In this document: piece by piece, positions 13,315-58,805 of the stretch
Layout of the letters: every line of letters begins with the position of its first letter
Numbering within the stretch: the first letter of the stretch is position 1
Source of the DNA: Lactarius indigo
Lineage: Eukaryota > Basidiomycota > Agaricomycetes > Russulales > Russulaceae
Length of the DNA: 64,000 nucleotides
Reading direction: 5' to 3'
Assembly (NCBI GenBank): GCA_025766275.1
Contig: JAFKAC010000023.1
Span: 620,001 to 684,000, forward strand
The notes under the pieces: generated by a model
What the model saw: the letters and a program-made list of their open reading frames with translations, nothing else
The model's database searches: none
Told to the model about the DNA's origin: nothing
Translations under genes and position numbers: made by a program

Positions 13315-16300
13315 CTATGAAGAGGGCACAGGAGCCCGCGAGCGAGAGATAACCTTCATCGCCTCTGCCCTAAACGAATGAATTTTTGACCACCACTTCG
13401 GTCCAGAAACTCCCTCCTGCGCCTTGGTCGCATCTTCCATCTTCTTCATTGCGTCATCAATATGAGAACCGGACTGACCCTCTACCATGTTCCACAACAA
13501 TATCAGAAGCTCATCAGTAAGGTATCTTGGGAAAGCGATATCAGACAATAGGCCGTGGCCGAGAATAGCCAAGTCGCAGACGAGGTTAAGAATGACTTGC
13601 TGTGTCCCGATAGAGTGTTTGTATTGCCTCCAGTCGGATGTGATGGTTCTGAACGTTCCGACAACCAGGAAAGAGCGAGCTTTAGGCGACAACGGTATGT
13701 ATAAATGTTGTTGGGTCACGAGGAAAAAATATTCAACAAAATATCCGAAGCCACCGCCGTCACGGAAGTCTTGCAGGCGATATAGTTGTCGTTCCATCAG
13801 ATGTCGTCTACGAACGCCCGTCCAATTGCGATGAGGGTTGTTCAACTCGCTCCACAATATCCCCAAGCTCTCGAGCGTCTCTTTGTAGGCGCCATTACCT
13901 CGTCCGTCGATGATGTCGCGTAATTTGGAAGAATAAGAGCACAAAAACCGAAGGCGTTGGTGGAGATATACGAATTGGGGTAAGAATGTCGGCCTGTCGA
14001 AGGATGGATTGAAGAATTGGTTCGGCTTCATGATTTCAGTCCGCTCGAAATCGTCGAAATATACGCCATGTAAGTTCAAAATCAAACCTTCAGCGTAAGA
14101 AGAGACAGAATCATTGATCTTGAATATTTGCTCATCAATGTCCACTATATGGCTCGTGGCGGGAGCGATGCGTTCGAGCTCGGAGATGTCGTCCTCGTGA
14201 TCGCGTGTCAGGACCTCTTTCACCTGCTCTTCCGTCGCTCCCTCTTCTGAGGGTCTGAATACCCTACGCAGTCGAGAAACACAAAATTGCCTCGCGGTCT
14301 CGAAATAATCGTCGATCCTTCGGGCATTCTTGAGCGCATTTTCGTCGACATCTCCATCGTTAATTTGCTCGCCACCATCTTCCGTTCTGAACCGTGAAAG
14401 ATGCTCGATAGCATTACGCGCATCCAGTTTGGTCCCGTCGTGGTTTAACATTCCTCGATTGACGACCACCAAGGATAGGCAGTCCAAGCGTACAACGAAT
14501 AACCCGTCAGATCCCGGTGCTATGTGGTAACGCTCGATTGATTCGTAGAGTGGATGGAGTAGCTTTCTAAGATCTCCGAACATCTCCAGTTTAATATTGG
14601 CAATGATCACGAGTGACGCCACCGTTCCGACGCATCCACGCGCACGCTTGTGCCACGATTCCTTGTCTGCAAAGATGGCGTAGTTATCGCACGTGGCAAC
14701 CAGGTGTCGTAGACGCTTGCAGAGAGCATTGGCAACATCTCCGTGTCGATCGAGATCATCGGGGAGCTGGCCATTACTAAGAAGGCGAGGGATTGACCGT
14801 ATCCCCGCCACATCTCGAGAGGTGCCACTCGCGGGTTCGAGGAGGCGGAGAGGATGGTTGGTGCGTTGGAAAAGTGGGGAACGGCGATGAGGTAGAACGG
14901 ATAGGCTAAGATCTTCATCATTCTGCGGTGTAACTGTAGGGTCGTTTGGCCGGACGTTTGTACCTTGATACTGCACTGCTTGAGAAGCCTTCCTCCATAC
15001 GTCGATTCCCCATTGAGAGGTAAAAGCACCAGGTATAGCCGTTACGAATGATTCCATCTCGTCGTCTTCGGTCCGACTATCAATGAGCCATCGGATTGCC
15101 CGAACGTCGCGATCTTTGCGTTCATCATTCTCTTCCATCGCCAGTTGCATCTGACCTTGTGATATGTTCGAGCTCACAGCCTTGACGGAGCCACCGGACG
15201 CGCGATCCAAGTAGCGTCGCGGATGCACCTTCTGCCTCAGATACCATATCAGGCCAGAGAATGGGTTTCGAAATGGAGATTGCGGTTTGATGACCGGAGC
15301 AAACATACTGAACACGTAAAGCAAGCCGCAAATGGTAATCGGGACGATAGTGGTGATGCCGACGGTGGTATTTACATTGAGAAGCGAGTCGCCGAGTCCT
15401 ACGAAGAATAAGAAGAGGGAGACGTGGACGAGGCCGGGAACAGATTCCGCGACCACAGGCATATACCATCCCTCCGCGCCTTCATATAGATATTGGCGCA
15501 GTCGGGCACTCTTCAGGGGGTTGTTGTACCGCTGGAACACGTGCATGTAGTCGCGTATCCATTGTTGGACGAGAGTTGCGAGGAGCGCGGCGGAAATGCT
15601 GAACACGAGACTCATGAACCAGAAAGCGTTGACCCGGACATCAGAAGGGTTCAGGGTGAAAACGTATGGTGGAGGCGCAGTGGACGGGATGGAGACCTGT
15701 GGTGCGATGGAGGAGACCTGCTGGGAGATCTGAGCGAGTAGTGCGACGTTCTGTTGCTGGTAGTAGACCATCTGCTGGGTTGGGTCGGATTGAAGGTTGT
15801 GAATCTTGTCGACGAGAAAGGAAGTAAGAGCGACAGAGAAAAAACCGGCCTGGACGACAGGGCATGAGCTCGGGGTAGTAGGCAATGATGGCGGAAAACA
15901 TGAACACGTACGAATATGAGGGTGCCGTCCATATCGCCTTTGAGGGATTGGATGCGGGCTTCGTCGTGGCTCATTGCTTCCTTCGCATGAAGGGACCACA
16001 AGGCATTGGCATTGTCATCGAAATCCCCGATCATGCGGGGCATTCCGGGAGGCATTGGTGGAACGGTGTCGTCGTCAGGAGTTCCGTCATCGTCACCAGG
16101 TTGATCAAGTTCGCCTGTAAGTTCTTAACGTATTAGGTCCTGAAGTTACTAGGGTACTAGGAATTATGTGCTATGCTCACCGAAGATGGAGGGCGCGCCT
16201 TTCGGAGCCTCCGCCTGCGACAAAGCGGAGACGGCCTGAGCTTCACCGACTGCTTCCACTTGTGTGTCACTTCCAGTGGTTCCCGAAACCTCTTCCTGTC

Positions 16301-22352: not shown

Positions 22353-22612
22353 TGTTACGCTTTGACCTGCACGGACGATACGACGACTTGTTACCCTTAC
22401 TGTACCGGTTGCAACTACGGCGGTAAGGTAGATTAGTTGCGGACTTAACCACGGTGATACGGTAGTGCGATAGGTGATACGGTACGATAGCTGACTGATG
22501 ACGGACGCCACTAATACTGGTAGTAGTGGTACTCGGATTGAGCTACTTACGCGATACGTTGGACGCTACTTTACGATGACTCATGGCAGCGCTTGAAAGC
22601 CTGCCCGACTTG

Positions 22613-22620
22613 TATTTAAG
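22613..22620 (+). promoter_or_regulatory. TATA box of the Gypsy-A LTR
   Basis: TATTTAAG lies 34 bp upstream of the 11-nt self-primer match at 22647. That spacing suits a transcription start at or near 22647. The same box sits at the same place in the LTRs of Gypsy-B and Gypsy-D, and as TATTTAAA in Gypsy-C. Confidence 0.65.
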
Positions 22621-22629
22621 ATGTCTTGT

Positions 22630-22658
22630 GAAGACCAAGATACGCCATCTTGGTCTTC
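22630..22658 (+). promoter_or_regulatory. Perfect 12-bp hairpin at the predicted transcript start
   Basis: GAAGACCAAGAT and ATCTTGGTCTTC are exact reverse complements around a 5-nt loop. The right arm (22647-22657) is also complementary to the primer site after the LTR. The same hairpin recurs in the LTRs of Gypsy-B and Gypsy-D. Confidence 0.8.
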
Positions 22659-22867
22659 TTGAATCGTCACTTGTTTTCCCTTTCATCTTCTTCGCTAAAT
22701 CGTCCGACTCCGCTCGAGACTCTAGAACTTCGACTTGCCGGTGTACCTCCGTGTATTCACTAAGGCAGGGACTTGGGCCTTCGTGTCTTCAAGCTAAGTA
22801 GAGCATTGCCAAAGTTGTTACCGCCATTAGTGCTCAAGTCGAGCTAACGTCGTGGCGACGTTACATT

Positions 22868-22878
22868 AAGACCAAGAT
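22868..22878 (+). promoter_or_regulatory. Self-primer binding site of Gypsy-A
   Basis: AAGACCAAGAT, two bases after the LTR, is the exact reverse complement of ATCTTGGTCTT at 22647-22657, the predicted 5' end of the RNA. This matches the self-priming layout known from Tf1/sushi elements, where the first 11 nt of the RNA prime minus-strand synthesis. I see no tRNA 3'-end match here. Confidence 0.75.
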
Positions 22879-22884
22879 ACAATC

Positions 22885-24960
22885 GTGGCCATAACAACCA
22901 GAGACCAGTGGACGAATTTCCGTCCGTACTCTCTCCCAAGAAGAGGAGAACGAAACGTCCCCACACGCTTTTTACAAGCTGCCAGTTGGAGGGAAAGACA
23001 AGAAGAAACAGGATACTTCGTTGAATTTAACGGACCCTCGAGGTTCCGCCCAGTTGAGTTCAACTTTGACCACTTGTGTTGGGTAGAAGTTGCGTGGAAC
23101 CCCATAGACTCTCAGTGGGACGCCATACGACCAACCGGACCCAGATATCGCTGCGACATCGACGCGCGAGAGCTCAATAGCCGAGCAGATTGGGGACCCA
23201 TCGACGGACAAGTACGAGAACACTCCACAGGAGAAGTGGTATCGGAAGAAGAAGAGAACCAAAGCCAAGAGGAAAGCGAAGGCCGAGAACCAAACCAGAC
23301 CGAAACAAGCGGGGGAGCCATACAAGACCTCCTGATAGAACGAGCTGAGTCAGCGCACATCACCGAACCAGAACCGATTCACATTCGATCCCCAGCTATC
23401 ATGGCTACAATAACGCGCGCAATGGAAGAAGTCGCGCTGGAAGAAGTGCGGGTAATACGCGAAGAAGCAAGGGACATCCTCATGCCCATCAACCCGGAGA
23501 CAGGAGTACGTATGACCGCAGACGACGCCGCAATCTTTCGAGCAATAGGATCAGATAGGGGAGACCCCCCGTCTGAGCGGCGACCAACGATGGAACTCCC
23601 CCCAGGAACCGGAGGACCAGGAGACGACCCGCCACAGCCACCAGGGGGAGGCGTTCCATTCGACCTACGAAGGACCGAACCACCAAGAGGACCACCCCAC
23701 GGCCCGCCCAGAGGAGGGGGAGGCGGCGGTGATGGAGGAGGAGGTGCAGGGGATAGAGGACACGGTGCAGGGGATAGAGGACACCCCAGCGAAAAATTAA
23801 CCGGCGAGCCACCCTCCATCTTTGATGGAGACAGACTTAAAGTCGATCAGTTCCTCACGCAGTGGCATGTCTATTGGGGCATGAATCTGGACGCCCCCAT
23901 CATGCGCAACGATTACAGGAGATGCCTCCTGTTTCTCTCATACATCAAGGGCGGAGCAGTCAGCGAATGGGTTTTATCCTTCCTGAACTGGCTCAATCGA
24001 CAAATACAACGAGGGATTAGCCCCTACACTCGGGGCCTATGGGATGCCGTAGCTGACGGCTTTAGCCAGAGGTTCGAAAACACCCTAGAAAGAGAGCAAG
24101 CGCAAGCCATACTACAAAAAGGCTTCAAAATGGTAGGAGAAGACATTGACAAGTACGTCAATGACTTTGAACAACTAGCACAGAAAGCTCATTACCACCT
24201 TAACGAACCGCAAACCATCGATCTATTCACGTCGGGTTTGCCCAAGGAACTGTTCAAAAATGCGTTCCAATTTGACGAGCCAGTAACGTTCGACGACTGG
24301 AAGAGAGCTGTCCTCAAGCGACAGAAGAACTACATCCATCTCAAAGCAAGGCTCAACAAGTACAAGAGCACGACGACTCCACCAAAGAAACAGACCAGCA
24401 ACGCAGGATGGGCACTTCCACAAAACCTACCACAGACCAACCCATGGGCTATGGACACTTCGGCCGATCGCGCCAAAGTACGGCTAGCCGGGTCCGAAGA
24501 CATCGACTTCAACAAGTTGCCCCACCACGATTGGCCAACGCCGCCATTCCCACCGCGAGGAGGCCCCGGAGCCAGAGGACGAGGAAGAGGCGGGTCTAGA
24601 AGGGACCTAAGGAACGTCCTTTGCTATAACTGTCACGCTCCAGGCCACCTCTCACGAAATTGCCCACACCCCCGACAGCAGAGACAGTGGCAGAATGCCC
24701 CGTCTAGCAGCAGAATGACAGAAACAGCCTGGCCACTACAATGGCCGGGATCCCCGGGTCCCACGTCCCAATACGAACCATCGCTGCCAGGATACGCAAC
24801 ACCCGCACCCAGCGCAACCCCCGCACCGCAGATCAAAGCGGTGAAAACGGCAGGAGAACAAGCAAAGGAGTGGCTGACGCAGGTGGCCAATAGCACGGAT
24901 GAAGTAAAGGACCTCATACTCCAAGATCTATGGGGAAAGGAGGGTTTTCAGGGCGCCTGA
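22885..24960 (+). CDS. gag: Gypsy-A Gag
   Basis: Gag forms the retroelement particle and packages its RNA. The 691-residue open frame has an N-terminal domain (about residues 1-110, rich in Trp and Arg), an acidic stretch, a Gly/Pro-rich linker (about 225-290), a retrotransposon-gag capsid-like region (about 300-480, with WVLSFLNWLNRQIQRG and KYVNDFEQLAQKAHYHLNEP), an Arg/Gly basic box, and one CCHC zinc knuckle, CYNCHAPGHLSRNC (about 578-591). The frame is intact. The first codon given is GTG at 22885; there is no in-frame ATG until 23401 (MATITRAMEE), yet the upstream part is conserved in the sister elements. Initiation is therefore either non-AUG or at 23401. The end overlaps pol in the minus-1 frame. 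Confidence 0.85.
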   Translation: MAITTRDQWTNFRPYSLPRRGERNVPTRFLQAASWRERQEETGYFVEFNGPSRFRPVEFNFDHLCWVEVAWNPIDSQWDAIRPTGPRYRCDIDARELNSRADWGPIDGQVREHSTGEVVSEEEENQSQEESEGREPNQTETSGGAIQDLLIERAESAHITEPEPIHIRSPAIMATITRAMEEVALEEVRVIREEARDILMPINPETGVRMTADDAAIFRAIGSDRGDPPSERRPTMELPPGTGGPGDDPPQPPGGGVPFDLRRTEPPRGPPHGPPRGGGGGGDGGGGAGDRGHGAGDRGHPSEKLTGEPPSIFDGDRLKVDQFLTQWHVYWGMNLDAPIMRNDYRRCLLFLSYIKGGAVSEWVLSFLNWLNRQIQRGISPYTRGLWDAVADGFSQRFENTLEREQAQAILQKGFKMVGEDIDKYVNDFEQLAQKAHYHLNEPQTIDLFTSGLPKELFKNAFQFDEPVTFDDWKRAVLKRQKNYIHLKARLNKYKSTTTPPKKQTSNAGWALPQNLPQTNPWAMDTSADRAKVRLAGSEDIDFNKLPHHDWPTPPFPPRGGPGARGRGRGGSRRDLRNVLCYNCHAPGHLSRNCPHPRQQRQWQNAPSSSRMTETAWPLQWPGSPGPTSQYEPSLPGYATPAPSATPAPQIKAVKTAGEQAKEWLTQVANSTDEVKDLILQDLWGKEGFQGA

Positions 24961-27900
24961 ACCCGTCAGTCTGGGTGAGGGCCTTACAATGTAATTCTGT
25001 AATTGTGACAACACGCTATCGATCTCTGCACATTCCAGTGACTGTCCGAACGAATTACCAAACGACTGAGACAAACGCGCTGGTGGACTCCGGAGCCACC
25101 GACAATTTCATCAAACCAGGCATGGCAGCCCGGGCAGGAATCCCGATACAGCCCTTAGAAGTGCCTCGCAAAATATGGAACATAGATAATACAGAAAACA
25201 AAGCTGGGTTGATCACTCATTACGTTAACCTAGAAGTAAAAATGCGTGGACAGAACAAACGGATGACCTTTTTGGTTACCGACCTTGGCAGCGAAAGCAT
25301 GGTACTAGGTTATCCATGGCTGAGCGCCTTCGAACCCACGATCAGCTGGGCAACAGCGACTATGCATCCGGACATGCAACCGGTAGTTCTGGCTACTACC
25401 GAAGACCTACTCACTGCACCCGCCATACGGGCTCTAATCACAGCAGAAAAGGAAGCGATCGTCCAGGAATTAGAAGAAGACGAAACCTTCGTACGGGCCA
25501 CCACTTCGACAGAGTTGGCTATATCAGCAAAGCAACAACAGACGGCAGCCGCGCTACCGCCGGTATATGCAGAATTCAGCACGCTATTTAGTGAGCAGGC
25601 CTCACATCGCTTCCCCCCGTCGCGACCTTGGGATCACGCCATCGACTTCAAACCGTCGGCGCCGGCGGCGATCAACTGCAAGATTTATCCCATGACACAA
25701 AAGGAGGAAGGTGAATTGAAGGACTTCCTCGACGAAAAATTGAAACAAGGATATCTACGTCCTTCTATCTCCCCATACGCCTCATCCTTCTTTTTCATCA
25801 AAAAGAAGGACGGAAAACTACGCCCTGTACAGGATTATAGGGTCATCAACTCGCATACGATTCGCAACCAGTATCCGCTACCACTAATTCAAGACCTCAT
25901 TCTCGACCTCAGCAACGCACACATCTACACGAAGCTCGACATCCGTTGGGGCTACAACAACATTCGCATTCGCGATGGAGACCAGGAAAAGGCGGCGTTC
26001 AAAACCAAATTTGGCCTTTTTGAGCCCACGGTCATGTTCTTTGGCCTCACCAACTCCCCAGCCACTTTCCAGGCAATGATGAACCACATCTACCGCGATA
26101 CGATCGCGAAACATGAACGCCTGGGCACTACGATACGTGTTTACATGGATGATATTGGCATCGCCACTCATTTTGACCACGACCTGGCAGCGCATATTGA
26201 CGCAGTGCGCGACGTTTTGAGCGTTGCACGGGAACACGACCTCTACTTCAAGCTCGAGAAATGCCTCTTCCACCAGCCGCGGATGGATTACCTGGGGGTA
26301 ATCCTTGAAAGGGGGGTAACCCGAATGGACCCCGTAAAAGTTCAAGGCATCAAAGATTGGCCAACGCCGACAAAGGTCAAGGACGTTCGATCGTTTCTCG
26401 GCTTTTGTAACTTTTACAGACTCTTCATCCGCGGATTCGCAACCCATGCTAAACCACTCACCAAACTGACGCGAAAAGATGAGGAATGGCAATGGACTGA
26501 AGAAGAAGACAAAGCGTTCAACACCCTCAAACGCCTCGTAACTGAAGAACCGGTGCTGGCACATCCGGTCCTCCAGGACCCATTTGAGCTAGAGGTTGAT
26601 GCCTCTGGATATGCGGTGGGAGCCGTACTATTACAACGGAAATCTGACGGAAAGCGACACCCCATAGGCTACTACTCGGCCACACTCTCGGAAGCAGAAC
26701 GAAATTACGACATTTACGATCTAGAGTTGCTCGCAATCGTCAAGGCGTTGCGAAATTGGAGACCGCTGCTCGCGGGAGCCCCACACAAAATCAAAATATA
26801 TTCGGATCACCTCAACCTGCAATACTGGAAATCCCCGCAGAAAATTAGCAGACGAGTCGCAAGGGAGGTGCTTGAACTTTCTGAATACGACTTCGAGATT
26901 CACCACATCAAAGGAAAGAGCAATGGCAGAGCAGACGCACTGTCAAGACGACCGGACTATGACCACGGGGGAAGTGACAACAGCGAAGTCGTCGTCCTAC
27001 CCCCCGAAGTCTTTGTGAGAACCCTCAATGTCGCGCGCACCTTCATCACGAATCCAAACCTGACACAACCGTGACACCAACAAGACCACGAAGTAATCAA
27101 GATGTGGGTAGACCCCCATCGCCTCAAAAGAATAGAAGGAGAATGGTACAAGGACGGCAGGTTTGTAATAACCGGACCTGCCTCGACGTACCGCGTACTG
27201 ATACATGACCACCACGACCTGCCAATACACGGCCACCCTGGGGTGGCAAGAACACAACGGATCTTAGAACGACATTACTGGTGGCCACGACTGCGAAAGG
27301 ACGTGTACGAATACGTGCAAGGCTGCGCAGAGTGTCAACGGAACAAAGTAAACACGAGACCCATACGAGCGGCGTTACATCCTATCACACCAGTATTGGA
27401 CGCCGTGCCCTTCCAAACCATAGCTATGGACTTCATTACCAAACTCCCACTGTCGCAAGGGTACGACAGCATACTGACTGTCACGGATCACGATTGTAGC
27501 AAGGCCTCTATCTTTATTCCATGCCAAGAAGAAATAACGGCCGAAGAGACAGCAGCCCTGTACGTCGCTCACGTGTTCAAACGCTTCGGATTACCACGCA
27601 AGTGTATTAGTGACAGAGACCCACGATTCGCGTCAAAATTCACCAGAGAAGTATGTCGAGTCCTAGGCATCCAGCAAAACATATCAACAGCATACCACCC
27701 GCGCACCGACGGACAGTCCGAACGAACCAATCAATGGTTGGAACAGTACCTGCGCTTCTGGGTAAATGAGCGGCAAGATAACTGGGCCGCTTATCTACCA
27801 ATCGCTGAATTCGCGCACAACAACTGGCCGCATGAACATACGAAACAGTCGCCGTTCAAGCTCCTGATGGGATACGACCCACAAGCGGATTGGACTGATA

Positions 27901-29675
27901 AGCCGTCCCCTCTTCCCCAGGTCACAAGGCGACTAACACAGCTAAAAGAGGCTAGGAAGGACGCCCAACGCCTCATGAAAAGGGCACAAGAGGCGTGGAT
28001 CCGCAATAAAGATACGCCCAAGTTCCAGACAGGGGACCTTGTATGGTTAGAGGGTAAACACCTCCGCACCAATCAGCCTACGGCGAAATTAGCGGCGTGA
28101 CGCCACGGGCCATTCCGGGTGACACAGGTGATGTCCCCCTGTAATAATCGATTAGAACTTCCCGCCCAGTGGAGCATTCACCCAGTGTTCCACATCGATC
28201 TTCTCACACCATACAAACAAACCCCCCTTCACGGAGAAAATTTCACACGACCGCCACCCGAATTAGTCGATGGCGAAGAAGAATACGAAGTCGAGGCCAT
28301 TCTGGACTCTCGGCGTTTTGGCAGAAGAAGGCGGCTCCAGTACCTCGTCAAATGGAAGGGATACCCAGACTCGGAGAATCAGTGGGTCGACGAGGATGAC
28401 GTCTTCGCACCAGAAGCGCTTCGCCTTTACCAGGAAGCACAAACACACGGTACGACAGTTAAAAAGGGCTCAACCCATGCTCAGGGAAGTCATCCCCTTT
28501 TCCTTCGCTCTGCCACCTCCACTCTCATGCCCACTTCCCCTCTGCGACATGTCACCCAAGCGATCCTCCTCGACTCCCTTGCCGAAGATGCTCAAGCCCT
28601 CCTCGCCGAGGATGACGAGACTGAGGTTCCCAACACCCAAATCACCCCGTACACACCTGTCGGCCAGCCAGAGGGCCGCATCACCGCACAAGAATGGGCG
28701 AACGTCCTTGCCCGATTTCCAGATCCCACGCAACAGCCCGACGACGAATCCACCGTCGTCCACGTCTTCCGAGATGAACATGGGGCGCGTGAACCAATCG
28801 CAGCCATCCCCCCAAGCGACGACCTCGTCGGCATTCGCGGAATTTTCCCGAGCAACGACGAGCGTTCAAGCTCTCCTGGAGTACGAGTTGGACGGTTGGA
28901 GGAGGGTAGCGGTGGAGTGGCAGAAGGAACAGTTAGACTCAGCCGCGGCCCGACTGAGAGAGATGCGCGAGCGGCAGCAGCGATGGAGGCTGCTGAGGCT
29001 GGCCATGACGACGACGATTACTACCCGGCACGCCACCCCTTCCTTCGAACGAAAAGCGACCCTACTGATCCCCGCATCACACCCTGGCTCGTCAACTCCG
29101 ACGGGTCCGCCATGTACCGAGGACGTGTGCGTGTACCGGGCGCCGCCGATCACCGCCCCTTCACCGCCGCTGATGACCCCGCGCATGTTATTGCGCCTGA
29201 GGGGTTCCGGGCAAATCGACGACCCCATCACATTCCATACCCCATCACCGGACCCGACGGCGTAGAAAGGGACGCCTCCCACGTCCAGATCATTGGAGGG
29301 GCGGACCCCCTCATACTGGGAGTCATACCGGGCTCCCCCCACTTATATGGTAAGCCCCTCTACGCAGAACCCCACGTCAGCGCCGCGCTGCGCCCCACGT
29401 ACCCCCACGAAGATCTTGTTATCTTCGCCGCGGACCGTATCACGGACCGCGCCCTCAACCGCATTAACGACGAGACACTCACGGCGGAAGTCACACGCTA
29501 CCGCACGGCCAGCTTTGAGCTGGAGCGACTCCGAGCCAGAGTGGCGCAGCTACGGGACATGATCGCGTGCGCGCAGAGCGACAGGCAGGACTCCATCTAC
29601 AGACTGGAGCGCGCCACCGCCCTTGAGCGCATCGCCGACGAACAGCGCGACTGGCCGGCGAGGGACTTTCGGTGA
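24930..29675 (+). pseudogene. pol: Gypsy-A Pol polyprotein, two in-frame stops
   Basis: One frame runs the whole length apart from TGA codons ending at 27074 and 28100. Domains in order, by residue from 24930: aspartic protease with LVDSGATDNFI (51-61), reverse transcriptase with YMDDIG (about 405-410), RNase H with LEVDASGYAVGAVLL (about 552-566), integrase zinc finger H-H-C-C (HGHPGVART to CAECQ, about 765-800), integrase core with AMDF, SDRDPRF and DGQSERTNQW for the D,D,E residues, chromodomain (about 1113-1165, YLVKWKGYPDSENQWV), and a further extension of about 400 residues ending in a coiled-coil-like stretch. Both stops are TGA where Gypsy-B has an arginine codon. Without readthrough, integrase and chromodomain would not be made in one piece. 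Confidence 0.9.
24942..24948 (+). promoter_or_regulatory. GGGTTTT minus-1 ribosomal slippery site, gag/pol junction of Gypsy-A
   Basis: The heptamer sits in the gag frame as G GGT TTT, which is the X XXY YYZ pattern, 12 bases before the gag stop. The pol frame is exactly minus 1 relative to gag. The site is kept in Gypsy-B and Gypsy-D. Confidence 0.75.
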
Positions 29676-29704: not shown

Positions 29705-30217
29705 TGTTACGCTTTGACCTGCACGGACGATACGACGACTTGTTACCCTTACTGTACCGGTTGCAACTACGGCGGTAAGGTAGATTAGTTGCGGACTTAA
29801 CCACGGTGATACGGTAGTGCGATAGGTGATACGGTACGATAGCTGACTGATGACGGACGCCACTAATACTGGTAGTAGGGGTACTCGGATTGAGCTACTT
29901 ACGCGATACGTTGGACGCTACTTTACGATGACTCATGGCAGCGCTTGAAAGCCTGCCCGACTTGTATTTAAGATGTCTTGTGAAGACCAAGATATGCCAT
30001 CTTGGTCTTCTTGAATCGTCACTTGTTTTCCCTTTCATCTTCTTCGCTAAATCGTCCGACTCCGCTCAAGACTCTAGAACTTCGACTTGCCGGTGTACCT
30101 CCGCGTATTCACTAAGGCAGGGACTTGGGCCTTCGTGTCTTCAAGCTAAGTAGAGCATTGCCAAAGTTGTTACCGCCATTAGTGCTCAAGTCGAGCTAAC
30201 GTCATGGCGACGTTACA
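29705..30217 (+). repeat. Gypsy-A 3' LTR (513 bp)
   Basis: Same length as the 5' LTR, with five differences seen by eye. Four are C/T or G/A exchanges at CpG. It ends in GACGTTACA directly against Copia-A coding sequence. Confidence 0.95.
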
Positions 30218-37536: not shown

Positions 37537-38078
37537 TGTAACGTCGCCACGACGTTAGCCCGACTTGAGCTCTAAGGGTGGTAACAACTTAGCAATGTAT
37601 CGATACGTCGACTTGAAGACACGGAGGTCCAAGCTTCTGTCCTGGTGAATACACGGAGGTACACCGGCAGATCCTTCTTATGTGGCTCACGAACGAAGTC
37701 AGAGTTGCTCTGAGTTTTGAAGAGAAATAGAGAGATGGAGAGGAAGGAGAAAAGAGAAACAAGTGGCGATTCAAGAAGACCAAGATGGCGTATCTTGGTC
37801 TTCGCAAGACAGCTTAAATACAAATCAAGCAGGCTTTCAAGCGCTGCTATGAGTCACCGTAATGTAGCATCCAACGTATCGCGTATGTAGCTCAATCCTA
37901 GTACTACTACTACCAGTATTAGTGGCGTCAGTCATCAGTCAGCTATCGTACCGTATCACCTATCGCACTACCGTATCACCGTGGTTAAGTCCGCAACTAA
38001 TCTACCTTACCGCCGTAGTTGCAACCGGTACAGTAAGGGTCCCCAAACCATATAGTCCACATGACTCGGAACGTAACA
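37537..38078 (-). repeat. Gypsy-B 3' LTR (542 bp)
   Basis: Minus-strand TGTTAC...GTTACA, with the same TATA box and 12-bp hairpin as Gypsy-A. The purine tract lies beside it at 38080-38090 (minus-strand AGAGGGGGTG). Confidence 0.95.
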
Positions 38079-38107
38079 TCACCCCCTCTTCAGCGTGAGA
38101 CCCCGAC

Positions 38108-41100
38108 TCACCGAAAGTCCCTCGCCGGCCAATCGCGCTGCTCGTCGGCGATGCGTTCGAGTGCAGTAGCGCGCTCCAGCCTGTAGATGGAGTCTTGTCT
38201 GTCGCTTTGCGCGCATGCGATCATGTCCCGCAGCTGCGCCACCCTCGCCCGGAGACACTCCAACTCAAAGCTAGCCGCGCGGTAGCGCGTGACTTCTGCC
38301 GTGAGCGTCTCGTTGTTGATGCGGTTGAGGGCGCGGTCCGTGATGCGGTCCGTGGCGAAGATGACAAGATCTTCGTGGGGGTACGTGGGGCGCAGCGCGG
38401 CGTTGACATGAGGTTCGGCGTAGAGGGGCTTACCATACAAGTGAGGGGAGCCCGGTATGACTCCCAGTATAAGGGGGTCCGCCCCTCCGATGATCTGGAT
38501 GTGGGAAGCGTCCCTCTCTACTCCGTCGGGGCCGGTGATGGGGTATGGAATGTGATGGGGTCGTCTATTTGCCCGGAACCCCTCAGGCGCAATAACGTGC
38601 GCGGGGTCGTCAGCGGCGGTGAAGGGGCGGTGCTCGGCGGCGCCCGGTACACGCACACATCCTCGGTACATGGCGGACCCGTCGGAGTTGACGAGCCAGG
38701 GTGTGATGCGGGGATTAGTAGGGTCGCTTTTCGTTCGAAGAAAGGCGTGGTGTGCCGGGTAGTAATCGTCGTCGTCATGGCCAGCCTCAGCAGCCTCCAT
38801 CGCTGCCGCCGCTCGCGCATCTCTCTCAGTCGGGCCGCTGCTGAGTCCAACTGTTCCTTCTGCCACTCCGCCGCTACCCTCCTCCAACCGTCCAACTCGT
38901 ACTCCAGGAGAGCTTGAACGCTCGTCGTTGCTCGGGAAAACTCCGCGAACGCCGACGAGGTCGTCACTTGGAGGGATGGCAGCGATGGGTTCGCGCTCCC
39001 CATGTTCGTCTCGGAAGACGTGGACGACGGCGGATTCGTCGTCGGGCTGTTGCGTGGGGTCTGGAAACCGGGCAAGGACGTTTGCCCATTCTTGTGCGGT
39101 GATGCGGCCCTCTGGTTGGCCGACAGGTGTGTACGGGGTGATTTGGGTGTTGGGAATCTCGGTTTCGTCATCTTCAGCGAGGAGGGCCCGCGCGTCTTCG
39201 GCAAGGGAGTCGAGGAGGATCGCTTGGGTGACATGTCGCAGAGGAGAAGTGGGCATGAGAGTGGAGGTGATAGAGCGAAGAAAAAGGGGATGACTCTCCT
39301 GAACATGGGCCGAGCCCCTTTTAACTGTTGCTTCGCGCGCTTGTGCTTCCTGATAGAGACGGAGCGCTTCCGGTGCAAAGACGTCATCTTCGTTGACCCA
39401 CTGATTCTCCGAGTCTGGGTACCCTTTCCATTTGACGAGATACTGAAGTCGCCTTCTTCTGCCGAAACGCCGAGAGTCTAGAATGGCCTCGACTTCGTAT
39501 TCTTCTTCGCCATCAATCAGCTCGGGCGGTGGTCGTGTGAAGTTTTCGCCATGAAGGGGGGTTTGTTTGTATGGTGTGAGAAGATCGATGTGGAACACTG
39601 GGTGGATGCTCCACTGGACCGGAAGTTCTAATCGATAATTATAGGGGGACATCACCTGTGTTACCCGGAATGGCCCGTGGCGTCGCGCCGCTAATTTCGC
39701 TGTGGGTTGATTGGTTCGGAGATGTTTGCCCTCTAACCACACAAGGTCTCCTGTTTGGAACTTGGGCGTATCTTTGTTGTGGACCCACGCCTCTTGCGCT
39801 CGTTTCATGAGACGTTGGGCGTCTTTTCTAGCCTCTTTTAGCTGCATTAGTCTCCTCGTGACTTGAGGAAGAGGGGATGGCTTATCGGTCCAATCCGCTT
39901 GCGGATCGTATCCCATCAGAAGCTGGAACGGCGACTGTTTCGTGTGTTCATGTGGCCAGTTGTTGTGCGCAAATTCGGCGATTGGTAGATAAGTGGCCCA
40001 GTTATCTTGTCGCTCATTCACCCAAAAGCGCAGATACTGTTCCAGCCATTGATTGGTCCGTTCGGACTGCCCGTCGGTGCGTGGGTGGTATGCCATCGAT
40101 ATGTTTTGCTGGATGCCCAGGACCCGACATACTTCTCTAGTGAACTTTGATGCAAATCGCGGGTCTCTGTCACTAATACACTTGCGCGGTAGCCCGAAGC
40201 GTTTGAATACATGAGTGACATACAGGGCTGCTGTCTCTTCCGCTGTTATCTCTTCTCGACATGGAATAAAGATGGAGGCCTTGCTACAGTCGTGATCCGT
40301 AACGGTCAGTATACTGTCGTACCCTTGTGACGGTGGGAGCTTGGTAATGAAGTCCATAGCTATGGTTTGGAAGGGCATGGCATCCAATACTGGCGTAATA
40401 GGATGTAGCGCCGCTCGTATGGGCCTCGTGTTTACTTTGTTTCTTTGGCATTCTGCGCAGCCTTGCACGTATTCGTATACGTCCTTTCGCAGCCTTGGCC
40501 ACCAATAATGCCGTTCTAAGATTCGCTGCGTTCTCGCCACTCCAGGGTGGCCGTGTATTGGTAAGTCTTGGTGGTCATGTATTAGCACGCGGTACGTCGA
40601 GGCAGGTCCGGTTACTACAAACCTGCCATCCTTATACCATTCCCCTTCTATCTTCTTGAGGCGATGGGAGTCTACCCACATCTTGATCACCTCGTTGTCT
40701 TGTTGATGACGCGGTTGCAGCAGGTTTGGGTTTGCGGCAAAGGTTCGTGCGACGTTGAGAGTTCTTACAAAGACTTCGGGGGGTAGGACGACGACTTCGC
40801 TGTTGTCGCCTCCTCCTTGGTCGTAGTCTGGCCGTCTTGATAGTGCGTCTGCTCTGCCGTTGCTCTTTCCTTTGATGTGGTGAATCTCAAAGTCGTACTC
40901 GGAAAGTTCAAGCACCTCCCTTGCGACTCGCCTGCTGATTTTCTGCGGGGATTTCCAATATTGTAGGTTGAGGTGATCTGAATATATCTTGATTTTGTGC
41001 GGAGCCCCTGCAAGCAACAGTCTCCAGTTTCGCAATGCCTTGACTATTGCGAGCAGCTCTAAGTCGTAAATGTCGTAGTTTCGTTCTGCTTCCGAGAGTG

Positions 41101-42853
41101 TGGCCGAGTAGTAGCCTATAGGGTGTCGCTTCCGATCAGATTTTTGTTGTAGCAATACGGCTCCCACCGCGTATCCGGAAGTGTCTACTTCTAACTCAAA
41201 TGGGTCTTGGAGGACCGGATGTGCCAGCACCGGTTCTTCAGTTACAAGGCGTTTGAGGGTGTTGAATGCCTTGTCTTCTTCTTCGGTCCATCGCCATTCT
41301 TCATCTTTTCGCGTCAGTTTGGTGAGTGGTTTGGCGTGGGTTGCAAATCCGCGGATAAAGAGTCTGTAAAAGTTGCAAAAACCAAGGAACGATCGGACGT
41401 CCTTGACTTTCGTTGGCGTTGGCCAGTCTTTGATACCTTGAACTTTTACAGGGTCCATTCGGGTCACCCCCCTTTCAAGGATTACCCCCAGGTAATCCAT
41501 CCGCGGCTGGTGGAACAGGCATTTCTCGAGTTTGAAGTAGAGATCGTGTTCGCGGGCAACGCTCAACACGTCGCGCACCGCTTCAATATGGGCTGTCAGG
41601 TCGTGGTCAAAATGAGTGGTGATGCCAATGTCATCCATGTAAACACGTATCGTAGTGCCTAGACGCTCGTGCTTCGCGATCGTGTCGCGGTAGATGTGGT
41701 TCATCATCGCCTGAAAGGTGGCCGGGGAGTTGGTGAGGCCAAAGAACATGACCGTGGGTTCAAAAAGGCCAAATTTGGTCTTGAATGCCGCTTTCTCCTG
41801 GTCGCCATCGCGAATGCGAATGTTGTTGTAGCCCCAGCGGATGTCAAGCTTTGTATAGATATGCGCGTTGCTGAGGTCGAGAATGAGGTCTTGTATTAGC
41901 GGCAGCGGGTACTGATTTCGAATGGTGTGTGAATTGATGACCCGATAGTCCTGCACTGGGCGTAGTTTCCCATCCTTCTTTTTGATGAAGAAGAAGGATG
42001 AGGCGTACGGGGAAATAGAAGGGCGCAGATAACCCTGTTTTAGTTTCTCGTCAAGGAACTCCTTCAACTCGCCTTCCTCCTTTTGTGTCATGGGGTATAT
42101 CTTACAGTCGATTGCCATTGGTGCCGATGGTTTGAAGTCGATGGCGTGGTCCCAGGGTCGTGATGGGGGGAAGCGATGTGAGGCCTGCTCACTGAATAAC
42201 GTGCTGAATTCTGCATATACCGGTGGCAGCACGGCTGCCGTTTGTTGTTGTTTTGCTGATATAGCCAACTCTGTCGAAGTGGTGGCTCGTGCGAAGGTCT
42301 CGTCTTCTTCTAGTTCCTGGACGATCGCTTCCTTCTCTATTGTGATTAAAGCCTGTACGGCGGGTGCGATGAGTAGTTCTTCGGTAGTAGCCAAGACTAC
42401 CGGTTGCATGTCTGGATGCATGGTTGCGGTTGCCCAACTAATCGTGGGCTCGAAGGCGCTCAGCCATGGATAGCCTAGCACCATGTCTTCGCTGCCGAGG
42501 TCGGTGACCAGAAAGGTCATTTTTTTGATCTGTCCACGTGTTTTCACTTCTAGGTTAACATAATGAGTGATTAACCCAGCTTTGTTTTCCGTGTTGTCTA
42601 TGTTCCATATTTTGCGAGGCACTTCTAGGGGCCGTATTGGGACTCCTGCCCGGGCCGCCATTCCTGGTTTGATGAAGTTGTCGGTGGCTCCAGAGTCCAC
42701 CAGCGCGTTGGTTTCAGTCGTTTGGTAATTCGTTCGGACAGTCACTGGAATTCGTAGAGATCGATAGCGCGTTGTCACAATTACAGAATTACATTGTAGA
42801 GCCCTCACCCAGACTGACGGGTTCAGGCACCCTGAAAACCCTCTTTCCCCCAC
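38108..42853 (-). CDS. pol: Gypsy-B Pol polyprotein, intact
   Basis: The 1581-residue open frame has no internal stop. Domains in order: aspartic protease (LVDSGATDNFI, 51-61), reverse transcriptase (SSFFFIKKKDGKLRPVQDYR about 288-307, YMDDIG about 405-410), RNase H (LEVDTSGYAVGAVLL, about 552-566), integrase zinc finger (HGHPGVART to CAECQRNK), catalytic core with AMDF, SDRDPRF and DGQSERTNQW, a GPFRVTQV-type C-terminal integrase domain, chromodomain (about 1113-1165, YLVKWKGYPDSENQWV), then an extension of about 400 residues ending LERIADEQRDWPARDFR. It is expressed as a Gag-Pol fusion through minus-1 frameshifting at 42835-42841. The chromodomain would steer integration to particular chromatin. 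The extension has no domain I know. Confidence 0.92.
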   Translation of the reverse strand: MGERGFSGCLNPSVWVRALQCNSVIVTTRYRSLRIPVTVRTNYQTTETNALVDSGATDNFIKPGMAARAGVPIRPLEVPRKIWNIDNTENKAGLITHYVNLEVKTRGQIKKMTFLVTDLGSEDMVLGYPWLSAFEPTISWATATMHPDMQPVVLATTEELLIAPAVQALITIEKEAIVQELEEDETFARATTSTELAISAKQQQTAAVLPPVYAEFSTLFSEQASHRFPPSRPWDHAIDFKPSAPMAIDCKIYPMTQKEEGELKEFLDEKLKQGYLRPSISPYASSFFFIKKKDGKLRPVQDYRVINSHTIRNQYPLPLIQDLILDLSNAHIYTKLDIRWGYNNIRIRDGDQEKAAFKTKFGLFEPTVMFFGLTNSPATFQAMMNHIYRDTIAKHERLGTTIRVYMDDIGITTHFDHDLTAHIEAVRDVLSVAREHDLYFKLEKCLFHQPRMDYLGVILERGVTRMDPVKVQGIKDWPTPTKVKDVRSFLGFCNFYRLFIRGFATHAKPLTKLTRKDEEWRWTEEEDKAFNTLKRLVTEEPVLAHPVLQDPFELEVDTSGYAVGAVLLQQKSDRKRHPIGYYSATLSEAERNYDIYDLELLAIVKALRNWRLLLAGAPHKIKIYSDHLNLQYWKSPQKISRRVAREVLELSEYDFEIHHIKGKSNGRADALSRRPDYDQGGGDNSEVVVLPPEVFVRTLNVARTFAANPNLLQPRHQQDNEVIKMWVDSHRLKKIEGEWYKDGRFVVTGPASTYRVLIHDHQDLPIHGHPGVARTQRILERHYWWPRLRKDVYEYVQGCAECQRNKVNTRPIRAALHPITPVLDAMPFQTIAMDFITKLPPSQGYDSILTVTDHDCSKASIFIPCREEITAEETAALYVTHVFKRFGLPRKCISDRDPRFASKFTREVCRVLGIQQNISMAYHPRTDGQSERTNQWLEQYLRFWVNERQDNWATYLPIAEFAHNNWPHEHTKQSPFQLLMGYDPQADWTDKPSPLPQVTRRLMQLKEARKDAQRLMKRAQEAWVHNKDTPKFQTGDLVWLEGKHLRTNQPTAKLAARRHGPFRVTQVMSPYNYRLELPVQWSIHPVFHIDLLTPYKQTPLHGENFTRPPPELIDGEEEYEVEAILDSRRFGRRRRLQYLVKWKGYPDSENQWVNEDDVFAPEALRLYQEAQAREATVKRGSAHVQESHPLFLRSITSTLMPTSPLRHVTQAILLDSLAEDARALLAEDDETEIPNTQITPYTPVGQPEGRITAQEWANVLARFPDPTQQPDDESAVVHVFRDEHGEREPIAAIPPSDDLVGVRGVFPSNDERSSSPGVRVGRLEEGSGGVAEGTVGLSSGPTERDARAAAAMEAAEAGHDDDDYYPAHHAFLRTKSDPTNPRITPWLVNSDGSAMYRGCVRVPGAAEHRPFTAADDPAHVIAPEGFRANRRPHHIPYPITGPDGVERDASHIQIIGGADPLILGVIPGSPHLYGKPLYAEPHVNAALRPTYPHEDLVIFATDRITDRALNRINNETLTAEVTRYRAASFELECLRARVAQLRDMIACAQSDRQDSIYRLERATALERIADEQRDWPARDFR

Positions 42854-44874
42854 AAGTCCTGAAGTATGAGGTCTTTTACCTCGTCCGTGCTATTGGCCAC
42901 CTGCGTCAGCCATTCCTTTGCTTGTTCCCCTGCTGTTTTCGCTGCTTTGATTTGTGGCGCCGGTGTTGCACTGGGTATCGGAGTGGCGTATCCTGGTAGC
43001 GATGGTTCGTACTGGGACACGGGTCCTGGAGGTCCCGGCCACTGTGTCGGCCAAGCGGTCTCAGTCATCCTGCTGCTGGATGGTGGATGTTGCCATTGTC
43101 TCTGCTGTCGGGGGTGTGGACAATTTCGTGAGAGGTGTCCGGGAGCGTGACAGTTATAACAAAGTACGTTCCTTAGGTCCCTCCTAGACCCGCCTCTTCC
43201 TCGTCCTCGAGCTCCAGGACCTCCACGTGGTGGGAATGGTGGTACGGGCCAATCGTGATGGGGCATTTTATTGAAATCAATTTCTTCCGATCCGGCTAGT
43301 CGTACCTTGGCACGATCGGCGGAGGTGTCCATGGCCCACGGGTTGGTCTGTGGCAGATTCTGCGGCAGGGCCCATCCGGCGTTTCCGGTTTGCTTCTTTG
43401 TTGGTGTCGTCGTATTCTTGTATTCGTTCAACCTTGCTTTAAGGTGGATATAGTTCTTTTGTCGTTTAAGGACTGCCCTCTTCCAGTCGTCAAACGTTAT
43501 GGGCTCGTCGAATTGGAACGCGTTTTTGAATAGTTCCTTGGGCAGACCCGACGTGAATAGGTCAATGGTTTGCGGTTCGTTGAGGTGGTAATGAGCCTTC
43601 CGCGCCAACTGTTCGAAATCGTTGATGTACTTATCAATGTCCTCTCCTGCCATCTTGAAGCCTTTCCTCAATATGGCTTGTGCTTGTTCCCTCTCCAACG
43701 TGTTTTCGAATCGTTGGCTGAATCCATCGGCCACGGCATCCCAAAGTCCGCGGGTGTAGGGGCTGATCCCTCGTTGTATTTGTCGATTGAGCCAGTTCAG
43801 GAAGGACAGTACCCATTCGCTGACTGCTCCGCCTTTGATATATGAAAGGAACAGGAGGCATCTCCTGTAGTTGTTGCGCATGATGGGGGCGTCCAAATTC
43901 ATGCCCCAATAGACATGCCACTGCGTGAGAAATTGGTCGACTTTAAGTCGGTCCCCGTCAAAAATGGAAGGTGGCTCGCCGGTTAGCTTCTCGCTGGGAT
44001 GTCCCCCTCCTCCTCCGGCATCACCGCCACCTCCGCCTCCTCCACCTCCAGGCGGGTCGCGGGGTGGTCCTCTTGGTGGTTCGGTTCTTCGTAAATCGAA
44101 TGGGATGCCCCCCCCTGGTGGTGGTGGCGGGTCGTCCCCCGGTCCTCCCACTCCTGGAGGTAGCTCCATTGTCGGCCGTCGTCCTGATGGAGGGTCTCCC
44201 CTATCTGACCCTATGGCCCGGAAAATTGCGGCGTCGTCTGCAGTCATACGTACCCCCGTTTCTGGGTTGATGGGCATAACGATATTTCTTGCTTCGTCTT
44301 GTATTACTCGCGCTTCTTCCATTGCGACTTCTTCCATTGCGCGCGTTATCGTAGCCATGATGGCTGGGGATCGGATGTGAATAGGTTCTGGTTCGGTGAT
44401 ATGCGCGGACTCAGCTCGCTCTATGAGGAGGTCTTGTATGGCTCCTCCGCTAGTCTCCGTCTGGTTTGGCTCTCGTCCTTCGCTTTCTTCCTGACTTTGT
44501 TCACTTTCTTCCTCTGACACTACCTCTCCAGTGGAGTGTTCTCGTAGTTGTCCGTCAATGGGACCCCAATCTGATCTGGTGTTGAGTTCTCGCGCGTCGA
44601 TATCGCAGCAGTATCTGGGTCCAGCCGGTCGTATTGCGTCCCACTGGGAATCTACAGGGTTCCACATAACCTCTACCCAGCACAGGTGGTCGAAGTTGAA
44701 CTCAACTGGGCGGAACCTGCTAGGTCCGTTGAATTCCACAAAATATCCTGTTTCTTCTTGTCTTTCCCTCCAACTTGCAGCTTGTAAAAAGCGCGTAGGG
44801 ACGTTGCGTTCTCCTCTTCTTTGGAGCGAGTAAGGACGGAAGCTCGTCCACTGATCTCTTGTTGTTACGGCCAC
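42823..44874 (-). CDS. gag: Gypsy-B Gag
   Basis: The 683-residue frame is colinear with Gypsy-A Gag: Trp/Arg-rich N-terminal domain, acidic stretch with HSTGEVVSEEESEQSQEESE, Gly/Pro linker (shorter than in Gypsy-A, a repeat-length difference), capsid-like region with WVLSFLNWLNRQIQRGISPY, and the CCHC knuckle CYNCHAPGHLSRNC. As in Gypsy-A the open frame starts at a GTG just after the primer site and has no ATG at the front. The first in-frame ATG, at about residue 69 (VEVMWNP), is not shared with Gypsy-A. The start codon is therefore unsettled. No stop interrupts the frame. Confidence 0.85.
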   Translation of the reverse strand: MAVTTRDQWTSFRPYSLQRRGERNVPTRFLQAASWRERQEETGYFVEFNGPSRFRPVEFNFDHLCWVEVMWNPVDSQWDAIRPAGPRYCCDIDARELNTRSDWGPIDGQLREHSTGEVVSEEESEQSQEESEGREPNQTETSGGAIQDLLIERAESAHITEPEPIHIRSPAIMATITRAMEEVAMEEARVIQDEARNIVMPINPETGVRMTADDAAIFRAIGSDRGDPPSGRRPTMELPPGVGGPGDDPPPPPGGGIPFDLRRTEPPRGPPRDPPGGGGGGGGGDAGGGGGHPSEKLTGEPPSIFDGDRLKVDQFLTQWHVYWGMNLDAPIMRNNYRRCLLFLSYIKGGAVSEWVLSFLNWLNRQIQRGISPYTRGLWDAVADGFSQRFENTLEREQAQAILRKGFKMAGEDIDKYINDFEQLARKAHYHLNEPQTIDLFTSGLPKELFKNAFQFDEPITFDDWKRAVLKRQKNYIHLKARLNEYKNTTTPTKKQTGNAGWALPQNLPQTNPWAMDTSADRAKVRLAGSEEIDFNKMPHHDWPVPPFPPRGGPGARGRGRGGSRRDLRNVLCYNCHAPGHLSRNCPHPRQQRQWQHPPSSSRMTETAWPTQWPGPPGPVSQYEPSLPGYATPIPSATPAPQIKAAKTAGEQAKEWLTQVANSTDEVKDLILQDLWGKEGFQGA
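42835..42841 (-). promoter_or_regulatory. GGGTTTT minus-1 slippery site of Gypsy-B
   Basis: On the minus strand it lies in the gag frame as G GGT TTT, at the same distance from the gag stop as in Gypsy-A, with pol in the minus-1 frame. Confidence 0.75.
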
Positions 44875-44880
44875 GATGGT

Positions 44881-44891
44881 ATCTTGGTCTT
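44881..44891 (-). promoter_or_regulatory. Self-primer binding site of Gypsy-B
   Basis: Minus-strand AAGACCAAGAT directly follows the LTR and is complementary to ATCTTGGTCTT downstream of the LTR TATA box, as in Gypsy-A. Confidence 0.75.
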
Positions 44892-44893
44892 AA

Positions 44894-45435
44894 TGTAACG
44901 TCGCCACGACGTTAGCCCGACTTGAGCTCTAAGGGTGGTAACAACTTAGCAATGTATCGATACGTCGACTTGAAGACACGGAGGTCCAAGCTTCTGTCCT
45001 GGTGAATACACGGAGGTACACCGGCAGATCCTTCTTATGTGGCTCACGAACGAAGTCGGAGTTGCTCTGAGTTTTGAAGAGAAATAGAGAGATGGAGAGG
45101 AAGGAGAAAAGAGAAACAAGTGGCGATTCAAGAAGACCAAGATGGCGTATCTTGGTCTTCGCAAGACAGCTTAAATACAAATCAAGCAGGCTTTCAAGCG
45201 CTGCTATGAGTCACCGTAATGTAGCGTCCAACGTATCGCGTATGTAGCTCAATCCTAGTACCACTACTACCAGTATTAGTGGCGTCAGTCATCAGTCAGC
45301 TATCGTACCGTATCACCTATCGCACTACCGTATCACCGTGGTTAAGTCCGCAACTAATCTACCTTACCGCCGTAGTTGCAACCGGTACAGTAAGGGTCCC
45401 CAAACCGTATAGTCCACATGACTCGGAATGTAACA
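44894..45435 (-). repeat. Gypsy-B 5' LTR (542 bp)
   Basis: Minus-strand TGTTACATTCC...GACGTTACA. It differs from the 3' LTR at five sites, four of them at CpG. Confidence 0.95.
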
Positions 45436-50475: not shown

Positions 50476-51060
50476 TGTTACGAACTCTCTTCTGGACTCG
50501 TTCCTTCTTTCTTACTACTCCATTCCCCGATACTTTACAAGCCCTGTATGACTATGCAAACCTTACGATTACCCGGTTCCTATCACATGCCTTGCTTATC
50601 GATGTTCCCTTCTGATAAAGCTTGACATGTGCTAGTTTCCATCTTACTCTCACCCACGCACAACCCTGTGTGATTCACCTTTGTTCCCATTATGACCACC
50701 CTTTGTTCTCTATATGTCTCTTCCCTTATTCCTTAGTCAAGCGATGGCGCCATCTGTTTGTAATGGCCATACAGACTGACCTGTATTTAAACCACATTCT
50801 ACCTAGCTTGTACGGTAGACTAGACTTCTTGTGTAATAACTACACTTGTCTGATTGCGGACGCCTTCGTGCTTTCCCTTGTCTCGTGAACCCCTGCTTTT
50901 GCTAGACCTTTGTGTCTTGGCCTTCCTCTACAGTCCAAGTGACTTATGTCCTTGTGATCCTTGTGCATCATTCTACTGCAGCCAGGCCTTGGAGCTTGCA
51001 CTACCCCTATTCAACTGACTTGGTACAGGTTGTACTCAACACCCCTGTAGTGGCGTTACA
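50476..51060 (+). repeat. Gypsy-C 5' LTR (585 bp)
   Basis: TGTTACGAAC...GGCGTTACA, with TATTTAAA at about 50783. After it comes TTAAGCCTAGTCTCCC. The reverse complement of AAGCCTAGTCT matches AGACTAGACTT, about 35 bp after the TATA box, at 10 of 11 positions, so the self-priming layout is present but slightly decayed. The 3' LTR is not in the window. Confidence 0.75.
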
Positions 51061-51090
51061 TTAAGCCTAGTCTCCCAGTCGCACACTGTG

Positions 51091-58332: not shown

Positions 58333-58805
58333 TGTAACGCCATCATGATGTTAGCTCGACTTGAGCTCGGTAAGTAAGGCGACTGGACTTAGCAAATCAT
58401 GTCTGAGATGTATGGCATGCAGGCAATCCTAGATGTTTGAAGACACTAGGGGATTGGCATTCTTCCTCCACAGTGAAGGCAGACTAGAGAAGACAAGGCA
58501 AGAAGTGACGATTGAAGAAGACCAAGATGGCGTATCTTGGTCTTCACAAGCCAGGTTAAATACAAGAAGAGCAGGCTTTCAAGCACTGCTATGAGTCACA
58601 GTATGCTAGCATCCAACGTGTCGTGTAAGTACCACAATCCTAATACTACTACTACCTGTACTAGGATCGAGTCATAGTCTCAGTCAGCAATCACACGCAA
58701 AACTCCTATTGTACTACATTGTAAACTCCTAAGTCCGTGACTAATATACCTTACTGCCATAGTCACAACTGGTACAGTAAGGGTCCAATGCGTGTAACTG
58801 TAACA
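58333..58805 (-). repeat. Gypsy-D 3' LTR (473 bp)
   Basis: Minus-strand TGTTACAG...GGCGTTACA, with TATTTAA and the same GAAGACCAAGAT / ATCTTGGTCTTC hairpin (about 58518-58546). The purine tract AAAAGGGGG on the minus strand lies at about 58809-58817. Confidence 0.85.

Follow-up and report, generated by a model that had tools for sequence, protein, structure and literature searches.

Candidate Tf1/sushi-type self-priming in chromodomain Ty3/gypsy retrotransposons of Lactarius indigo

Introduction

The usual primers of LTR elements are tRNAs. Tf1 is an established case of self-priming, and the same mode has been proposed for Tj1, Tosmo, and the Tf1/sushi group, as far as the accessible text of the respective reports goes (PMC4600332, PMC10085805, and PMC6317226). 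According to the description in PMC10085805, Tf1 and Tf2 of Schizosaccharomyces pombe combine a chromodomain integrase with a self-primer at the 5' end of the RNA that is complementary to a site behind the LTR. The Tf1 leader is portrayed there as a "pretzel" of three duplexes, i.e., the primer paired with its site and two helices that join sequence adjacent to the site to the LTR below the primer. For Tj1, Tosmo1-3, and Tcry1 of other fission yeasts, self-priming has been concluded from complementarity of the same kind (PMC4600332 and PMC10085805, available passages). A table in PMC6317226 places the marY1, Maggy, Pyret/skippy, and sushi-ichi clades among the Tf1/sushi-related chromoviruses outside plants, which are likened to the present elements by description only. 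The Tcn1-like elements of mosses and fungi are chromoviruses as well, and their plant members are mostly predicted to be self-priming in the accessible part of PMC6317226. SM-Tcn1 differs in that the consulted account, PMC2864245, contains evidence for neither tRNA priming nor self-priming.

The current study deals with a 64-kb window, i.e., the whole stretch of DNA that was analyzed, from the genome of the basidiomycete Lactarius indigo. This genome comprises 90.3 Mb in 291 contigs, so that further copies of the elements in the window were open to testing. A previous sequence-only reading had proposed self-priming of the Tf1/sushi type for two elements, Gypsy-A and Gypsy-B, and probably for a third one, Gypsy-C. 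Like Tf1, these elements have a putative 5'-end primer that is complementary to a site behind the LTR, and of the two additional leader duplexes of Tf1, the equivalent of the second is supported here and that of the third is partial.

Results

Both Gypsy-A and Gypsy-B encode gag with a zinc knuckle, protease, reverse transcriptase (RT), RNase H, integrase, and a chromodomain (Table 1). In Gypsy-B, the Pfam matches to protease, RT, RNase H, integrase, a Tf2-1-like SH3 domain, and Chromo lie in one ORF and are all above the cutoff; the same domains were found in Gypsy-A, except that the SH3 match is under the cutoff, and the gag domain of both elements falls just below it (23.7 and 23.6 versus 24.1). 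The chromodomain at the integrase end and the Ty3/gypsy order of domains are those of the self-primed chromoviruses of the Tf1/sushi type. A frog protein of identical domain content scored 1335 bits (36% identity over 70%) and Ty3 (PDB) 379 bits, which is suggestive only. The LTR ends of Gypsy-A (TGTTACG...CGTTACA) and Gypsy-B (TGTTACA...CGTTACA), as well as the ends of Gypsy-C (CGTTACA) and of a further element, L092 (CGTGACA), both checked at the 3' end only, fit the Sushi motifs TGTYANR/CNTNACA of PMC3601003. This match is weak, since the rGmr1 motifs listed alongside, as far as that table was accessible, fit too.

The two LTRs of Gypsy-A are 99.0% identical (BLAST), and a search for a 5-bp target duplication around the element (22353-30217) found none; this combination may reflect recombination between copies. 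Gypsy-C, the 5' LTR of which ends at position 51060, appears to be an older element into which element D has been inserted. This view is based on a 96% match to the Gypsy-C 5' LTR 4.1 kb past the window (G000:C146:688126-688544), probably the 3' LTR of Gypsy-C with D nested between the two. The 5' LTR and primer site of D are located just outside the window, in locus L091.

Table 1. Coordinates of elements, candidate priming signals, and leader duplexes (window positions unless a locus is given)
Feature	Position	Strand	Remarks
Gypsy-A 5' LTR	22353..22865	+	TGTTACG...CGTTACA; ending CA at 22865
Gypsy-A TATTTAAG box	22613..22620	+	
Gypsy-A palindrome left arm GAAGACCAAGAT	22630..22641	+	primer-site copy above predicted start
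Gypsy-A predicted self-primer ATCTTGGTCTT	22647..22657	+	first 11 nt of R; predicted start +1 = 22647
Leader duplex 2, 5' strand TCGTCAC	22664..22670	+	
Leader duplex 3, 5' strand GTTGTTACCGCCAT	22814..22827	+	in U5; weaker support
Leader duplex 2, 3' strand GTGGCGA	22852..22858	+	U5 end; GTGACGA in many copies
Gypsy-A primer binding site AAGACCAAGAT	22868..22878	+	two T's between LTR end and site
Leader duplex 3, 3' strand GTGGCCATAACAAC	22885..22898	+	past primer site; weaker support
Gypsy-A gag ORF and pol in several ORFs	22885..29675	+	RT, RNase H, integrase, chromodomain
Gypsy-A 3' LTR	29705..30217	+	palindrome 29982-30010, primer copy 29999-30009
Gypsy-B	37537..45435	-	5-bp target duplication GAAAG
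Gypsy-B pol ORF	38108..42853	-	protease, RT, RNase H, integrase, Tf2-1-like SH3, chromodomain
Gypsy-B predicted primer, left arm, and primer site	45133-45143, 45149-45159, 44881-44891	-	
Gypsy-C TATTTAA box	50784..50790	+	
Gypsy-C predicted self-primer AGACTAGACTT	50817..50827	+	
Gypsy-C primer site AAGCCTAGTCT	51063..51073	+	one base off 19/20 other family copies
Element D 3' LTR	58333..58805	-	primer 58518-58528, left arm 58534-58544
Predicted self-primer AGACTCAACTT, chromovirus family L045/L046/L049/L060	L133:323-333		35 nt below TATATAAG

Several other features of the window were recorded in passing. A copia-type pol ORF of 967 amino acids (30232-33135, plus strand) immediately follows Gypsy-A, and three repeat units that match each other (33149-33758, 47160-47725, and 55963-56626) are perhaps copia LTRs. 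Three diverged paralogues with a DUF6535 domain, a family linked to basidiomycetes, are arranged in tandem on the minus strand (736-3219, 5607-8099, and 13315-15999; DNA identity of 74 to 86% over the aligned parts). The ORF at 34813-35538 (minus strand), which is without a Pfam match, contains a coding repeat (35133-35540) with spacings of 9 and 12 bases. No loci were obtained from scans of viral contigs with the Gypsy-B pol protein, a 12-sequence protein alignment, and the palindrome pattern described below, nor from scans of genome contigs with the latter two.

In Gypsy-A, the 11 nt AAGACCAAGAT two bases past the LTR are the exact reverse complement of ATCTTGGTCTT, and 34 nt separate the first base of the TATTTAAG box from position 22647. 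The sequence-only reading had described this pair at the same coordinates, and its statements that Gypsy-B carries the identical pair, located here on the minus strand, and that Gypsy-C pairs at 10 of 11 positions with other letters (AGACTAGACTT and AAGCCTAGTCT) proved correct as well. Counted on both strands, ATCTTGGTCTT occurs 12 times in the window versus 0.05 times expected from shuffles, and the reverse complement of the site arose 2, 0, and 0 times when each of three LTRs was shuffled 2000 times. The window and the loci of over 1000 bases were scanned for LTR-end-like sites with an upstream complement (at most one mismatch; 1666 candidate sites), which gave 39 matches versus 2 in the reversed-sequence control. 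By sequence, 29 of the 39 are primer pairs, namely those of C, L010, and L092 together with 26 of the A type, which count Gypsy-A twice (again as L001); another one is the Gypsy-C pair on the opposite strand, and the last 9 are chance-like. Three families show at least 10 nt of complementarity to the 5' LTR at 0 to 5 nt past its end, the criterion given in the accessible part of PMC6317226. The distance of the site from the LTR is 2 nt in the A/B/D and C families (11 nt paired) and 1 nt in L092 (11 to 13 nt paired).

Two candidates were set aside. An 11-nt pair on the minus strand of L032 (TTCCAATCCCT/AGGGATTGGAA; offsets 2815/3103, starts 288 apart, near a TATA-like box) was discarded with the LTR end being unclear. 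A perfect 32-bp inverted repeat near a TATA-like sequence in L042 (401-829; arm starts 397 bases apart) looks like a different kind of repeat, perhaps another mobile element.

A comparison of primer sites across family members had been proposed as a check; run on part of the copies, it revealed full complementarity in three families despite differing primer letters. With the Gypsy-A LTR and leader as query, 42 matches were listed (40 of 1991 first-look candidates were scored); the best 30 of these 42 were fetched, and primer and site are intact in all 22 of them that reach the site. Together with B, L010, L043, and L091, the 22 matches make up a set of 26 leaders, the rows of which were selected by primer and site pattern; the primer-site duplex of L010 includes one G-U pair. 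For the C family, 40 matches were listed, 31 of them reaching the site besides the copy in the window, and 20 of the 31 were fetched with a preference for low net indel. The primer AGACTAGACTT is intact in 20/20 and the site AAGTCTAGTCT in 19/20, which pair at 11/11 positions; the exception has one substitution, different from the mismatch in the Gypsy-C site, which is private among the 21 copies. A one-base mutation in the window's Gypsy-C site thus accounts for the 10/11 match, and the earlier "probably" can be dropped for the C family, with the copy in the window having a mutated site. L092 represents a third LTR family with the pair AGCTTTGGCTT/AAGCCAAAGCT, which matches at 11/11 positions and extends to 13 nt, the site being taken from one copy only. 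The primer letters of this family recur without change in 20 of the 22 3' LTRs that were aligned, with L043 and L047 being one base off.

Between the three families, 5 of the 11 primer positions (2, 3, 4, 6, and 8) differ, and the site always compensates, which bears out the previous claim that the letters changed while the complementarity persisted. Primers and sites swapped between families match only at 6 to 8 of 11 positions. All three primers have the frame A.......CTT, followed by C, and the shared CTT-then-C is likely a common cleavage context.

An equally good match of the site to a tRNA had been named as one of two observations that would speak against self-priming; it was searched for among 13 distinct sequences from 30 of the 63 tRNA loci, a set without Met, and was not found. 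The longest contiguous match of these 13 tRNAs to the sites is 6 nt (8 nt with G-U), and the best 12-nt match to a tRNA 3' end reaches 6 to 7 positions. TGG is absent near the LTR end in the three families, and the tRNA scan of the window returned zero tRNAs.

The three-duplex structure of Tf1 was written on the 26 A-family leaders, and pairing was counted. Overall, 95.0% of 779 cells are paired (shuffles, 93.4), and 7 pairs have changed on both sides, versus 2.1 in shuffles, none of 500 of which was as high; sliding the partners by 1 to 3 columns lowers pairing to 22 to 62%. The complete (100%) pairing of duplex 1 in the 26 rows follows from their choice by primer and site pattern. In duplex 2 (TCGTCAC/GTGACGA), 95.6% of cells are paired and 3 of 7 pairs have changed on both sides. 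Its center varies between U-A, C-G, and U-G, and in one tree reconstruction it underwent 7 changes in one strand and 8 in the partner strand, of which 2 fell on the same branch with pairing kept; the same reconstruction contains such a double change in no other pair. The divergent L010 has TCCACC with GGTGGA at this place. Duplex 3 is 91.0% paired, with 4 of 12 pairs changed on both sides, each in one sequence, and it is imperfect, as one pair is broken in 10/26 leaders and no double change falls on one branch. The compensated changes support a covarying, Tf1-like duplex 2, while duplex 3 would be partial, with weaker support. Minimum-energy folds from +1 contain the primer-site pairing and the equivalent of duplex 2 in A, C, and L092. 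The total folding energy of the leaders is ordinary (z scores of -0.79, -0.63, and -1.25) and was therefore not counted as evidence for self-priming.

Counted from the initial T of the TATA box, the primer begins at a distance of 34 nt in A and D, 33 nt in C, and 34 nt in L092 (32 nt if measured from an inner TATAAA). The near-constant spacing of 33 to 34 nt agrees with, and supports, the predicted start at 22647. In the chromovirus family L045/L046/L049/L060, an 11-mer of the form A...CTTC is found 35 nt below TATATAAG. The LTR of this family was covered up to 169 nt from the predicted primer start, and its primer site would be AAGTTGAGTCT, which is a prediction only.

The sequence-only reading overlooked a third copy of AAGACCAAGAT, located at 22631-22641 in the 5' LTR and again at 29983-29993 in the 3' LTR of Gypsy-A. 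The sequence over the predicted start reads GAAGACCAAGAT-ACGCC-ATCTTGGTCTTC; the extra copy thereby creates a perfect 12-bp inverted repeat with a 5-nt loop that spans the predicted start. This palindrome is kept in A, B, D, and relatives, including the nested L091 copy with a different loop, and is absent from the window's Gypsy-C and from L092. Its conservation was assessed in 36 distinct start regions (40 before removal of identical ones), for which the right arm and not the left one served as the search key; the window copies L001 and L002 and the element of L010 at position 80 are excluded from this sample. The left arm is exact in 31/36 regions and has one difference in 5/36, and mean conservation is 0.988 for the left arm and 0.961 for the loop, versus 0.864 and 0.858 for the flanking U3.

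In computed foldings of the A leader, the probability of the primer-site pairing is 0.79 for RNA starting at +1, 0.79 to 0.89 for starts from +1 to -10, 0.72 at -13, and 0.00 at -16 and above, where the hairpin takes over (0.95 at -16; 0.95 to 0.99 overall). When all 26 leaders are started at -20, the computed primer-site pairing is at most 0.08 and the hairpin 0.82 to 0.99; started at +1, the median for primer and site is 0.82, yet 8/26 remain below 0.3. In the folded 3' LTR of Gypsy-A, the primer copy is enclosed in the 12-bp hairpin.

Discussion

The elements are chromodomain Ty3/gypsy LTR retrotransposons, and with a probability of about 0.92, they are self-primed like Tf1. The previous proposal of Tf1/sushi-type self-priming is supported by the complementary pair, its covariation in three families, the spacing, the flanking duplex 2, and the finding of no tRNA-type site in the comparison with the 13 tRNAs. 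The transcript would begin at an A located about 33 to 34 nt downstream of the TATA box, and its 5'-terminal 11 nt would fold back onto the site just past the 5' LTR. The RNase H of the element would then cut after nucleotide 11 (CUU^C in each of the three families) and liberate a 3' end that would prime minus-strand DNA. Self-priming of this type is very likely; start site, cleavage, and priming are what we infer from the sequences.

The role of the palindrome in A/B/D can be interpreted in several ways. The upstream primer-site copy might act as a lock, with the primer being accessible only where it forms the extreme 5' end of the RNA: the copy in the 3' LTR and transcripts started far enough upstream would fold into the 12-bp hairpin and could neither invade nor use the primer site. 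Going by the computed pairing, such a lock is conceivable. A wider version, in which transcription start gates self-priming, is rather doubtful: the hairpin would form in the 3' LTR and in RNAs that begin at or upstream of -16, only near-exact starts would prime, longer RNAs would serve as messenger only, and the 3' primer copy would be no competitor. RNase H might even use the hairpin as an additional substrate. Such a lock is not needed for self-priming as such, since C and L092 showed no counterpart.

An equal rival is a role of the palindrome in DNA, as a promoter element or factor binding site, which is plausible and would leave self-priming unaffected. The palindrome overlaps the core promoter between the TATA box and +1, and arms and loop are all conserved; the loop, with its value of 0.961, fits a role in DNA no worse than a lock and speaks for the former. 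On the other hand, an exact copy of the primer site exceeds the needs of a promoter motif, and C and L092 keep about the same TATA spacing without a palindrome. It is improbable that the upstream arm merely hitchhikes as a passive remnant of an aberrant round of reverse transcription in which the primer site was copied into U3. In Gypsy-A, 13 nt (AAGACCAAGATAC) are common to the arm and the primer site, but the arm looks kept, given that it is exact in 31 and altered at one position in 5 of the 36 regions, which include LTRs that match A at 75 to 98%.

With regard to self-priming itself, leader duplexes have several roles in retroelements, and the complementarity could belong to a structure for packaging or translation control at the RNA 5' end, with priming taking place elsewhere. 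This is very unlikely, because the position right after the LTR is the expected place of minus-strand priming and a tRNA-type site was not found there. Least probable, and strongly disfavored, is priming by a host RNA, either a tRNA (3' end or half molecule) or another one, with an incidental LTR match: tRNA priming is the commonest mode among LTR elements and the comparison was limited to the 13 sequences, none of them Met, but TGG is absent, contiguous matches are at most 6 nt (8 nt with G-U), and the site follows the LTR primer through three sequence versions. Half-tRNA sites, moreover, are confined to copia elements in the accessible part of the plant survey PMC6317226.

As the mechanism of self-priming is known, the families from L. 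indigo look like new members of an existing group, and the upstream arm sets A/B/D apart as a variant. No such extra primer-site copy above the start is mentioned in the description of Tf1 consulted here (PMC10085805), and the arm is likewise unmentioned in the available passages on Tj1, Tosmo1-3, and Tcry1, which moreover have Ascomycete hosts (PMC4600332 and PMC10085805). A full-text literature search, with most subscription papers outside its scope, found no description of a comparable arm.

Compensated changes thus serve as evidence for self-priming in the chromoviruses of a large, repeat-rich genome. They also suggest a way of finding further families from the TATA box and the LTR end alone. 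The lock, if true, would answer how the 3' primer copy or mis-started RNAs are kept from interfering. It would also link the choice of the start site to the fate of the RNA, a connection that has been proposed for retroviruses.
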